From a virus: a DNA stretch of 27,828 bases. The stretch covers positions 1-27,828 of the IMG/VR virus record IMGVR_UViG_3300009419_000073, one strand, 5' to 3'. Shown piece by piece: positions 5,108 to 8,664 of this stretch (positions are counted from its first letter, which is position 1; the number at the start of each line of letters is the position of its first letter). A model generated the notes under the pieces. That model ran no database searches. It had not been told where the DNA came from and saw only the letters and a program-made list of their open reading frames with translations. The position numbers were made by a program, and so were the translations under genes.

Positions 5108-5836
5108 ATGAGTAGCGAATTTCCAGAGCTAAGCTTTGCAAAGTTTATTCACAAAGCAGAAGCTCTAAACGCACCAAAGAGTATACTGATTTTTGCTGAT
5201 GCTGGCAGAGGTAAGACTTGGCTAGCCGCATCTGCAGCAGAGGTTGAAGGCATGGGTCCTGTGCTCTTGCTTGATGCCGAAGGTGGGGCATCTGCCATAG
5301 CACGAGACTGGAAGAATGTTGATGTGTTAAACATCTCAACACACGAGCAGTTTGTTGCAGTGACTGATGACTTGCTATCTAAACCTCATAAATACAAGAC
5401 TGTAATCATAGACACGATTGGTGTAGTAATGGACAGAGCAGAAAAGTATTTTGGGGAAAAACCAGAAAACCAAAACAATAAGTTTGGTCGCTGGGGTGAC
5501 TTGAAGAACTGGGCTAACAATGTATTCAGGTCTTTGCACTCAGCACCATTTACTTCGATTATCATAGCTCACTCACTTGATGACAAGGACGAAAACACTG
5601 GAGCAGTAAAGACAACTGCAATGCTTCCTGGTTCATTCAAGAGCACACTCCCAGGAATCCCTGACATTGTTGGTTATCTAACAGTTGAAGAGGTAGAGGG
5701 AGTACCACAGAGGGTGCTGATTGTAGCGCCATCTAACAGGTTGATTACTAAGAATAGATTCAATCTGCCAGCAAAAATAACACAACCATCCATGAAAAAA
5801 ATCATGGGTCTAATTAAAGAAGGAGGTACTAAGTAA
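5108..5836 (+). CDS. Sak4-like RecA-fold ATPase (ssDNA recombinase)
   Basis: 242 residues from ATG 5108, chosen because AAGGAG lies six bases upstream; an earlier in-frame ATG at 5051 lies in the promoter region. Walker A is FADAGRGKTWLA (29-40) and Walker B is TVIIDT (98-103, D102). The remaining IIIAHSLDD and PGIPDIVGYL segments fit phage RecA-like ATPases of the AAA_24/Sak4 type. These are single-domain recombinases that promote single-strand annealing or exchange with a cognate SSB. The next gene is an SSB-like DUF669 candidate and the previous gene a RecB-like nuclease, so the three form a likely recombination module. The family call is strong; biochemical activity is inferred. Confidence 0.85.
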   Translation: MSSEFPELSFAKFIHKAEALNAPKSILIFADAGRGKTWLAASAAEVEGMGPVLLLDAEGGASAIARDWKNVDVLNISTHEQFVAVTDDLLSKPHKYKTVIIDTIGVVMDRAEKYFGEKPENQNNKFGRWGDLKNWANNVFRSLHSAPFTSIIIAHSLDDKDENTGAVKTTAMLPGSFKSTLPGIPDIVGYLTVEEVEGVPQRVLIVAPSNRLITKNRFNLPAKITQPSMKKIMGLIKEGGTK

Positions 5837-6315
5837 TGAGTGGTATTAAAATTACAGGTATTACCGAAGACGCACTAGCAACATCATCTTCAAGTGGTGC
5901 ACCGATGTCAGCTATTCCAGCTGGTTCATATAACGCAACCATCTTTGATGTAAAGCAAGAGCAGGTGCGTTCAGGTCCTAACGAGGGAAAGCCAAGACTG
6001 AATGTTCAGTTTAGGATTTCGAATGGGCAGTACGAAAACCGTAGAGTGTTTGCTTACATTGCACTCTACGTGGCAGGTGACTTCTGGAAGACTCAGAGCT
6101 TCTTTAAGGCACTTGGCTATGACATGAAGTCTGGTGACTTTGAAGTCCCAGAAAACAACGAGCTTCTAGGTAAGCCAGTTGGTGTTCGTGTCAAGGTGGG
6201 GAAAGACCAGAACGGCGAGGATAGAAATGAAGTAGCTGGCTTTGATAAAGCAACTACAGATTCTTTGCTAGGTTCGCTTGGTGCAACTCCAGTTGTATCC
6301 GATGTCTGGGTCTAA
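5836..6315 (+). CDS. DUF669-like ssDNA-binding protein
   Basis: 159 residues. ATG 5836 overlaps the previous TAA, with AAGGAGG at 5820-5826. After a Ser/Ala-rich N-terminus, residues 27-110 are beta-rich: PAGSYNATIFDVKQEQVR, LNVQFRI, RRVFAYIAL, DFWKTQSFFKALGYD. This is followed by a second beta stretch, LGKPVGVRVKVGKDQNGED. This matches the DUF669 pattern of phage proteins that replace SSB and are usually encoded next to Sak4-type recombinases. It lacks a classical acidic SSB tail. A role in coating ssDNA for the adjacent Sak4-like protein and the primase is inferred from family and position. Confidence 0.75.
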   Translation: MSGIKITGITEDALATSSSSGAPMSAIPAGSYNATIFDVKQEQVRSGPNEGKPRLNVQFRISNGQYENRRVFAYIALYVAGDFWKTQSFFKALGYDMKSGDFEVPENNELLGKPVGVRVKVGKDQNGEDRNEVAGFDKATTDSLLGSLGATPVVSDVWV

Positions 6316-6468
6316 CTAATGGGCAACGTGGGGTGCGTCACGTAAACAACGCACATTACCCTCCACTGGTGTTTCACGCCTTCCTCCTTTGTGCGTGCAA
6401 CAAGGTTCGATTCCTTGTCGAGGGACAACACAAATAAATATTTCATTTATCTATAAGGAGGATACATA
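6316..6468 (+). promoter_or_regulatory. Structured 153-base leader of the primase gene
   Basis: The longest gene-free stretch in the early arm. It holds GTGCGT/ACGCAC (6333-6338 and 6349-6354; 10-base loop), CACGC/GCGTG (6375-6379 and 6393-6397) whose loop contains CCTCCTTT, a tRNA-like T-arm (6401-6417), and TTGTC/GACAA (6414-6418 and 6423-6427 region), which competes with the T-arm. TCCTCCTT at 6382-6389 is fully complementary to AAGGAGGA at 6455-6462, the ribosome binding site of the primase gene. I see no clear sigma70 promoter in it. A structured control region is inference. Confidence 0.4.
6359..6425 (+). ncRNA. tRNA-like element (T-arm plus acceptor-like stem; not a canonical tRNA)
   Basis: CAAGG-TTCGATT-CCTTG at 6401-6417 is a perfect tRNA T-arm with the canonical loop. 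The next seven bases TCGAGGG (6418-6424) can pair with CCCTCCA (6359-6365) at six of seven positions, with A6425 as discriminator; CCA is not encoded. The middle does not fold as a tRNA: a poor D-arm without GG, and a 5-bp stem with a 13-base loop instead of an anticodon arm, 67 bases in all. It may be a decayed tRNA, a tRNA 3'-end copy such as an attachment-site core (no integrase in the window), or a regulatory mimic. Confidence 0.3.
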
Positions 6469-8664
6469 TTGAAGACAGGTGATTTCTTCGATGCCATATA
6501 TGGCGAGGCAACTGGTCTTGCAACCATTGTCACTAGGCATCCAGCTAGTGGTGAGCTTACTGACCAGAAGTTCTTTGACTACCCACAGGACAAAGAGCAG
6601 ATGGTTATTCACTCAACCAACAACGCTAACGGTGATGTTTACTTCTCACCTATTTTGTTTGGCTCACCTAGAAGAATAAAAGAAAACGCTAAAACCGTAT
6701 CTGTAGTTTATGCTGATGCTGACAGTTGTCAGCCAGAAAACTTTCTGATTGAGCCATCTATTTCTGTGCAAACCAGTGAAGGTCGCTGGCACACCTACTG
6801 GATTCTTGATGAGCAACACGACCCTCAGGAGATTGCACTGGTAGCAAAGAAGATTGCCTATGCTCACTCTCACCAAGGTTGCGATAGGTCTGGCTGGAAT
6901 AGCACTAAGCTACTTCGTGTGCCAAATTCCATGAACCGCAAAGAAGGCAAAGACTATCCAGTCACAGCTATTTCGAATGGTGCAATCTATAGCTTAACCG
7001 AAATAAACGAACAGTATGGTGATGTTGAGGTTGAGCCAATCAGAGACCTTTCACTAAAAGAATTGCCACCACAGTGGCCTGACCTAATGGCAACTATGGC
7101 TAAGATACAAAGCAATCCAGAGATTATTGGCCTGTACATGGAGCAACCACCAGCCAATGCAGATATGTCAAAGCTGTTGTGGAAGCTTGAGCTTGAATTG
7201 TTTAGGCAGGGACTGACTGCTGAGGAAGTTTTCGTTGTTGCTAGAAACGCAAAGTGCAATAAGTATCACTCCCCTCTTAGACCAAAGCGTGGTGATGCAG
7301 ACGGTGACCTATGGCGTGAGGTTCAGCGTGCAGGTTCTTCTTACCAGCAGGGTTCTGTAGTAGAATATCAGCCAGTAGAACCGATTGTTGTCTCAAGTGC
7401 TATTGTAAAAGAGGATGCAAAGTTTTTAACCGAAGATGAGCAATATGTTGTTGACAGTCGTAGAACTTTTATTGATGACTACATGGATTGGGCTAAGTCC
7501 AAGACCGATGCCGCCCAGCAGTACCATATTGCGAGCGCCTTTACTGTGCTATCATCAGCCTTCTCCGATATAGGTTACGCCATACCCAAGTACGGCAAGA
7601 TGGGTCTGAACCTGTGGTTTATGGTGCTTGGTGAGACAACCCTAACTCGTAAGTCAACCAGCAGAAACCTAATGCTTAGGATGATTCGTGAGTTTGAGAA
7701 ATACTCTGGCTACCAGATTGACATTGGTTCTGATGCAACTCCTGAAGGTGTGACTGCAATTCTTGCAGAGCGTGACGGCAAGACTAGCCTACTGCACAGG
7801 GATGAAGTACAGGGTATGTTCAAGGACTTTATCAACAAGACCTACATGGCCTCAGCTGCAGAAAGATTTACTGAGCTTTACGATGGACACGTGCCAGTGG
7901 TTATCCGTTCTGGTAAGGGCAAGTCTCAAACTGAAAGAGCAACAACTAACTTCGTGATGTTCTTGATGGGTATCACAAGCAAGGTGGCAGATGTTTTAAC
8001 TACTGAGTACTTCCGTTCTGGATTCTTGGCACGATTTATTTACGTGACTGCGGAAACTCCAGACAGAAGCAAAGAGCTTGAGGACATTCAGCAGGCAGAC
8101 GAGTATGAAGTTATCGTCAAGGATTCTGTAATGGATAACCTTGTGAAGGGAATTTACAATGCTGTTGTATTCTGGCAGAAGAAGGGTGAGCCAAGTCCAA
8201 GACCAATCAGATTGAGCGAACCAGCACTAGAGAGATTTAACCAGTTCAAGTGGGAGATGGGCAACTGGGCAGATAACCACCCAGAGCGTGACTCTATTGA
8301 GCCTTCACGCCAGCGACTTGCCTTGTCTGTCTGGAAGTGTGCGATTCTTCTTGCGATGCACGAACAAAAGGAGCAGGTCGAACTTCGCCATATGCTCACC
8401 GCAATCTACTACTCTCAGGACTGGTTCAAGAACCTAATTAAGATGGCTAGCGCAATCTCTGCATCTGAATGGCAGAGAGATGTTGATAAGCTGGAGGCTT
8501 TGGTTATTGACAGAGGTGGAAAGATTCGCTATGAGGAAGCCTACCGCAAGTTTAGCAATAAGCGTAAGCGTGAGTTTGACGAGATGGTTCAGGCGCTACA
8601 TTCTCAGGCACGTGTACAGATTACAGTTGACAACCGCAAGAGCTATCTTGAGGTGATTGTTTAA
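6469..8664 (+). CDS. Primase-polymerase / DUF3987-type helicase fusion
   Basis: 731 residues from TTG 6469 with AAGGAGGA at 6455-6462. The N-terminal third is an archaeo-eukaryotic primase (AEP)-like domain: VVYADADS with D83-x-D85 as metal ligands, SEGRWHTYWIL with H108, and CDRSGWNSTKLLRVPNSMNRK-like motif III region (138-158; D139, R150, N153). The C-terminal part (about 330-620) is a DUF3987-type RecA-fold ATPase. Its P-loop is GETTLTRKST (388-397), the RKS variant common in that family, followed by a LLHRDEVQGMF Walker B-like segment. It should prime and unwind at the phage origin. It overlaps the next gene by one base. No separate replicative polymerase is visible, so it may be the main replication protein or work with a host polymerase. 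Confidence 0.85.
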   Translation: MKTGDFFDAIYGEATGLATIVTRHPASGELTDQKFFDYPQDKEQMVIHSTNNANGDVYFSPILFGSPRRIKENAKTVSVVYADADSCQPENFLIEPSISVQTSEGRWHTYWILDEQHDPQEIALVAKKIAYAHSHQGCDRSGWNSTKLLRVPNSMNRKEGKDYPVTAISNGAIYSLTEINEQYGDVEVEPIRDLSLKELPPQWPDLMATMAKIQSNPEIIGLYMEQPPANADMSKLLWKLELELFRQGLTAEEVFVVARNAKCNKYHSPLRPKRGDADGDLWREVQRAGSSYQQGSVVEYQPVEPIVVSSAIVKEDAKFLTEDEQYVVDSRRTFIDDYMDWAKSKTDAAQQYHIASAFTVLSSAFSDIGYAIPKYGKMGLNLWFMVLGETTLTRKSTSRNLMLRMIREFEKYSGYQIDIGSDATPEGVTAILAERDGKTSLLHRDEVQGMFKDFINKTYMASAAERFTELYDGHVPVVIRSGKGKSQTERATTNFVMFLMGITSKVADVLTTEYFRSGFLARFIYVTAETPDRSKELEDIQQADEYEVIVKDSVMDNLVKGIYNAVVFWQKKGEPSPRPIRLSEPALERFNQFKWEMGNWADNHPERDSIEPSRQRLALSVWKCAILLAMHEQKEQVELRHMLTAIYYSQDWFKNLIKMASAISASEWQRDVDKLEALVIDRGGKIRYEEAYRKFSNKRKREFDEMVQALHSQARVQITVDNRKSYLEVIV

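Follow-up and report, generated by a model that had tools for sequence, protein, structure and literature searches.

The window analysed here, the whole 27,828-nt stretch of an uncultivated IMG/VR virus record, carries a structured RNA element (6326-6425) in a 153-nt gap, flanked by an SSB-like gene (5836-6315), with matches to PHROG ssDNA-binding proteins and homologues flanking the element in relatives, and a primase-helicase gene with a TTG start (6469-8664; phrog_10514 DNA primase, E 2e-163), all on the plus strand. In the element, an H-type pseudoknot precedes a tRNA-like domain, and the loop at the anticodon position of this domain is complementary to the primase Shine-Dalgarno (SD) sequence. 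Comparison with related phages shows that this conserved structured RNA fold is real, and that the loop changes in step with the leader of the primase gene in the same phage, mostly with its SD. An initial sequence-only reading had reported the 8-base complementarity between TCCTCCTT (6382-6389) and the primase ribosome binding site (RBS) AAGGAGGA (6455-6462), and both the letters and the places were correct. Within the window alone this match is suggestive and not decisive: a leader-to-RBS complement of 8 nt arose in 6/2000 dinucleotide shuffles and the folding energy is ordinary (z = -0.07), so that the window by itself is inconclusive. The observation is decided by the comparative sequence data, which combine a covarying structure with a loop complementarity that tracks its partner.

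A conserved pseudoknot and tRNA-like domain

Searches of IMG/VR yielded 60 loci by primase and 56 by SSB, on contigs that are partly near-duplicates and to which clustering was applied. Parsing of these relatives gave 61 different versions of the element, all of them in the SSB-like/primase gap, with loops and starts assigned by script and a few late-set loops by hand. Their common order, from 5' to 3', encompasses an AATGGGC-like stretch (in most versions), an H-type pseudoknot (two subtypes exist, one per relative), 2-4 nt, the acceptor stem, a short D-loop-like GG segment without D-stem, an anticodon-position stem of 5-8 bp that carries a pyrimidine loop, a T-arm whose T-loop is canonical (TTCGATT in 49/61 cores) and the acceptor 3' strand. 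The base after this strand is A in 59/61 and the next one C in 61/61; a C at base 74 is thus found in 61/61 elements, as compared with 35/41 real tRNAs of the same phages.

In the window, the stop codon of the SSB-like gene lies 10 nt upstream of the pseudoknot (6326-6354), on the same strand. The pseudoknot is formed by helix S1 (ACGTG 6326-6330 / CACGT 6339-6343) and by helix S2 (GTGCGT 6333-6338 / ACGCAC 6349-6354), which crosses it. The tRNA-like domain (6359-6425) runs from the acceptor to the discriminator base A6425, followed by C6426, and covariance model R1 matches it within 6316-6425 (91.4 bits, E 9.3e-21). Its acceptor pairs CCCTCCA (6359-6365) with TCGAGGG (6418-6424), with a C-C mismatch at pair 6. 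A D-loop-like segment without D-stem, CTGGTGTTT (6366-6374), contains the conserved GG and precedes the anticodon-position stem (CACGC 6375-6379 / GCGTG 6393-6397), which encloses the 13-nt antisense (anti-SD) loop CTTCCTCCTTTGT (6380-6392). The T-arm, CAAGG-TTCGATT-CCTTG, occupies 6401-6417. The CACGC/GCGTG hairpin and the T-arm had been placed correctly in the sequence-only reading, which took the latter for a tRNA T-arm mimic; the T-arm is real, but it does not stand alone and belongs to a full tRNA-like domain closed by the acceptor.

Strong covariation is seen in each of the five helices, and the crossing pairs of the pseudoknot are no exception. In the A1 alignment (22 sequences, 30 pairs) 84% of cells are paired and 22 pairs show changes on both sides, with a covariation score of 0.527 versus 0.210 in shuffled alignments (0/500), while slid structures never exceeded 0.164; the alignments were made with MAFFT, free of structure, and the structure itself was drawn from the same sequences. 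The anticodon-position stem (A1 helix 4) is 95% paired with both-side changes in 7/7 pairs, the T-arm (helix 5) is 100% paired with both-side changes in 4/5, and the GG of the D-loop-like segment is invariant. The second pseudoknot subtype also covaries in A1, and the window-type pseudoknot, in alignment A3, presents 97.7% paired cells, both-side changes in 6/11 pairs (S1, 100% paired, 4/5 pairs; S2, 95.8% paired, 2/6 pairs) and a covariation of 0.398 versus 0.128 in shuffles (0/500). Both strands of the acceptor find support in covariation and in the covariance model, with its outer pairs covarying. Its pairs 6 and 7 (window 6364-6365 / 6418-6419) are mismatched in 13 and 14 of the 22 sequences, and the acceptor is therefore effectively of 5 bp; these T-arm-side mismatches across lineages may mark an unstable tRNA-like fold.

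The covariation among related phages that had been proposed as a check was hence found (0/500 shuffles), and two alternative pairings advanced in the same reading fared worse. A competition of the T-arm with TTGTC/GACAA is not supported: TTGTC is present in only 5/61 cores and the two helices, on inspection, vary independently in relatives (e.g. in L040). The pairing of ACGCAC with a second GTGCGT copy is not conserved, and the GTGCGT/ACGCAC hairpin constitutes one half of the H-type pseudoknot. Relatives with an intact primase gene that lack loop, T-arm and complementary bases, which had been named as evidence against the element, were not seen in the close IMG/VR family; distant cultured phages have no anti-SD loop.

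Searches with the covariance model, for which E-values are rough, identified a single strong copy per record in 17 virus records and no further copy in the window. A primase-blind pattern search for a T-arm preceded by a CTCCTTT loop returned 25 strong model matches, and 25/25 adjoin an SSB-like gene, a primase gene or both, even on truncated contigs. Three weak model matches in one contig without a primase match (L227:1876-3052) are possibly a tRNA array. A chance origin of the element was ruled out by covariation and fixed position. The stretch AATGGGC, at window 6318-6324 directly 5' of the pseudoknot, is kept in most relatives and, as considered by eye, could be a start codon, a contact of the acceptor 5' strand or a part of the pseudoknot.

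Loop and primase leader co-vary

The complementarity between loop and primase RBS is maintained with different letters in different relatives, such as L033 (loop CTTCTTCTCC, RBS GGAGAAGAAG), L077 (CCTCCTCCCTG, CAGGGAGGAGG), L052 (TTTCTCCTTTT, AAAAGGAGAAA) and L103 (CTCCTCTT, AAGAGGAG). Across 31 clusters, the longest loop match (LCS) averaged 8.16 nt with the phage's own leader versus 6.95 nt with swapped leaders (0/20000), and the corresponding comparison of duplex energy (dG) gave 6/20000. The signal persisted when one case per SD type was retained (n=22; LCS 5/20000, dG 20/20000). When permuting within loop/SD types only, which removes the main lineage effect, the primase kept an LCS of 6/20000 and an energy of 150/20000, with the permutations covering phylogeny incompletely. 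Nine further, previously unused relatives gave 338/20000 for LCS and 1683/20000 for energy. No co-variation with the loop was detected for the neighbouring SSB RBS, where own and permuted values were equal. The loop pairing with the primase RBS described in the sequence-only reading is thus borne out by loop-leader covariation among the relatives.

Loop and SD are both SD/anti-SD-like, and part of their match is expected anyway. That the loop copies the 16S rRNA tail, as had also been claimed, holds in part: the loop fits the primase RBS better (8.27 nt, -14.05 kcal/mol) than the 16S tail does (6.67 nt, -10.74 kcal/mol), and a plain copy of the 16S tail is hence an insufficient account. The best loop match is weak or off the SD in L223, L258, L010 and L093, and for the SD itself energy co-variation is weak in the long-leader set (2432/20000).

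Many relatives have genuine tRNA genes (Asn, Thr, Trp, Gln) between element and primase. In these tRNA-bearing gaps, the 5' half of the loop complements a stretch located directly after the last tRNA and upstream of the SD, as in L009 (TTTATCTCTC / GAGAGATAAA), L030 (CCTGTTTG / CAAACAGG), L075 (TTTCTCTCTC / GAGAGAGAAA) and, from a later separate search, L264 (CGTTTTTCTCC / GGAGAAAAACG). A compensatory change separates L006 (TTGCT / AGCAA) from its close relative L011 (TTCGCT / AGCGAA), and the comparison of own with permuted second sites over 23 distinct loops yielded 9/20000 for LCS and 0/20000 for energy. The order of the two leader sites matches that of the two loop halves, and the sites are therefore probably alternative pairings and not one continuous duplex.

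Relation to known RNAs

No family of Rfam 15 reached its gathering score in 6250-6500, and none had an E-value up to 10 save a weak match to mascRNA-menRNA (RF01684); Rfam likewise returned no match to the element in nine relatives. ARAGORN identified 0 tRNA genes in the window, where Rfam found no tRNA match either. The element shares with tRNAs an acceptor and a T-arm with a TTCRANY T-loop, but it has no D-stem and its loop is of 13 nt instead of the 7 nt of an anticodon loop. With mascRNA-menRNA, the sole Rfam model with any signal, it has in common being a small tRNA-like RNA; the score (15.7 bits, E 1.1) is however far under the gathering value of 42.5, and that family, known from 3' processing of animal lncRNAs, has no pseudoknot or antisense loop.

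Among the closest known RNAs is tmRNA (ssrA, RF00023), with which the element shares a GG D-loop without D-stem, a canonical T-arm and an H-type pseudoknot, the type I version being close to E. coli PK1. Type I pseudoknots align with the letters of E. coli tmRNA PK1 (0/2000 for L040 and L063, 9/2000 for the window, against a weak null), and this PK1-like pseudoknot next to a D-stem-less domain hints, given that weak null, at a possible descent from tmRNA. Unlike tmRNA, the element has no tag reading frame (only 35 nt separate acceptor and T-arm) and no G3-U70 (C-G in 60/61), its pseudoknot lies 5' of the domain, and a short loop replaces the mRNA-like part. The Rfam tmRNA model did not match in the window or in the nine relatives.

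Plant-virus tRNA-like structures lie at the 3' end of RNA genomes and serve replication and translation. As in these, a pseudoknot stands directly 5' of a tRNA-like domain on a viral transcript, but the element belongs to a DNA phage, where it sits in an internal leader and carries an antisense loop. The E. coli thrS operator exerts leader control using a tRNA-like mimic. As in thrS, in SD-sequestering leaders and in translational riboswitches, pairing with the SD would control translation, and the element has the conserved, covarying SD complement of an SD-sequestering leader, on what the co-directional genes suggest is the same transcript. It differs from these systems in that sequestration would fall to the anticodon-position loop of an entire tRNA-like domain, for which no ligand or binding protein is known.

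The closest cultured relatives by primase mostly infect actinobacteria, and a primase search in bacterial genomes returned no confirmed relative. Blastn of two elements against cultured phages matched only tRNA T-arms or short chance stretches, and the anti-SD element was not found in the inspected cultured phages with a related primase. Several of these phages harbour different tRNA-like pieces in the same gap. Arthrobacter phage Amigo (L116:2035-2152) presents a similar pseudoknot, AGACCTGAGCAAGTCTGTGTAAACTGCTCA, directly before an annotated tRNA-Gly(ccc) whose anticodon is undefined by ARAGORN. Stenotrophomonas phage Jojan60 (L115:2386-2468) and L008 (1539-1621) encode an 83-nt mini-tmRNA above the Rfam tmRNA cut-off (61.8 and 48.8 bits), consisting only of a tRNA-like domain and a short hairpin, with no tag frame; in Jojan60 it lies directly 5' of the primase gene and is absent from the record's feature table, and four tRNAs of this phage (L115:1680-2194) are annotated on the strand opposite to that given by ARAGORN. 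By eye, tmRNA-like mini domains with D-loops GGTTTCGT and GGTGTCGA are apparent among tRNA genes at L033:7756 and L047:2892, with no Rfam tmRNA match. Clavibacter phage CN1A (L119:2370-2510) shows an apparent acceptor plus T-arm mini-helix with an ACCA end and no anticodon arm, directly 5' of primase.

No description of such an element was found in the literature, mainly open-access papers. By Rfam and this open-access literature, the element is undescribed, in agreement with the earlier remark that no described element of this make-up was known.

Candidate mechanisms of action

The loop:SD duplex and the covarying tRNA-like fold cannot form at the same time. Nested folding of short-leader relatives assigned the loop:SD pairing a probability of 0.83-1.0 in 18/20 cases, with L004 (0.46) and L036 (0.66) as exceptions, and the nested fold with this duplex kept the T-arm and opened the acceptor and the anticodon-position stem. 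The suggestion that mutually exclusive folds could act as a translational switch gains ground from this pairing of SD and loop in nearly all short-leader relatives. We consider it an evenly balanced proposition, resting on sequence comparison and predicted folding, that the element operates as a translational switch for primase, opposing the tRNA-like fold to a hidden SD. In one state, the transcript would adopt the pseudoknot and the tRNA-like domain; in the alternative state, pairing of the loop with the primase SD would block ribosome entry and disrupt both the acceptor and the anticodon-position stem. Host tRNA-maturation enzymes probably accept the tRNA-like fold as a substrate, and its excision would free the primase mRNA. 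The element probably sets when the phage makes its replication enzyme. We infer the two-state switch, the direction of regulation, processing by RNase P/Z and the role of the pseudoknot; that loop and SD share one transcript is suggested by the co-directional genes. A steric objection to cis pairing in short leaders was dropped, as the D-stem-less arm may swing or open.

The main rival to this switch, which we regard as possible though doubtful, is a stable trans-acting tRNA-like sRNA, excised by tRNA-maturation enzymes, whose loop would repress strong-SD early mRNAs, those for primase, the exonuclease and a Sak4-like ATPase included, and would help the shift to late genes without strong SDs. 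Trans action fits better in long leaders, since their tRNA genes leave 100-750 nt between loop and SD and the loop/primase complementarity is retained despite these intervening genes. The tRNA-like 3' end, common to the real tRNAs of these phages, also agrees with excision. Based on crude gene calls, strong AGGAG SDs are found on early genes and hardly any on late structural genes in the window and 14 other records; in the window, early genes lie on the plus strand and tail genes on the minus strand. Several genomes present 9-12 nt loop matches to the exonuclease and Sak4 RBSs, and own versus swapped loops gave 2/20000 (LCS) and 0/20000 (dG) for the exonuclease and 5/20000 (LCS) for Sak4, with a null result for SSB. 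Within SD strata, however, these values fell to 3057/20000 (LCS) and 247/20000 (dG) for the exonuclease and 1208/20000 (LCS) for Sak4, whereas the primase signal stayed. The switch is rated most likely, with the processed trans-acting RNA as its main rival, and both can hold together. A tentative combined view is that a phage tRNA-like RNA, matured by host tRNA enzymes, carries an 'anticodon' loop that reads SDs instead of codons and times the translation of primase and early genes in cis and in trans.

It is improbable that the element serves chiefly as a decoy or mimic for factors that bind tRNA or rescue ribosomes (EF-Tu, SmpB, RNase P), with SD complementarity being secondary. The tmRNA-like combination of D-stem-less domain and pseudoknot, the PK1 alignments and the separate mini-tmRNA-like domains in the same gap speak for such a role, but pair 3:70 is not the alanylation-type G-U, the Rfam tmRNA model does not match, and the co-variation of loop and leader would be left unexplained. 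That the element is a tRNA gene in decay, or an attP copy of the 3' end of a host tRNA, is highly improbable in spite of the tRNA-like T-arm and acceptor and an excisionase-like gene: neither ARAGORN nor Rfam detects a tRNA, compensatory changes keep the helices across wide divergence, pseudoknot and loop are conserved, and covariation across 22 divergent copies refutes a tRNA gene, relic or attP.

The element is widespread in uncultivated phages, with at least 61 versions, and has gone unannotated. Because the loop co-varies with the primase leader, small reporters allow a direct test of the mechanism. If the proposed switch is true, these phages would harbour riboregulators of a class that presents an RBS-antisense loop on a tRNA-like fold, and the translation of their replication gene would be tied to tRNA-like folding or maturation.
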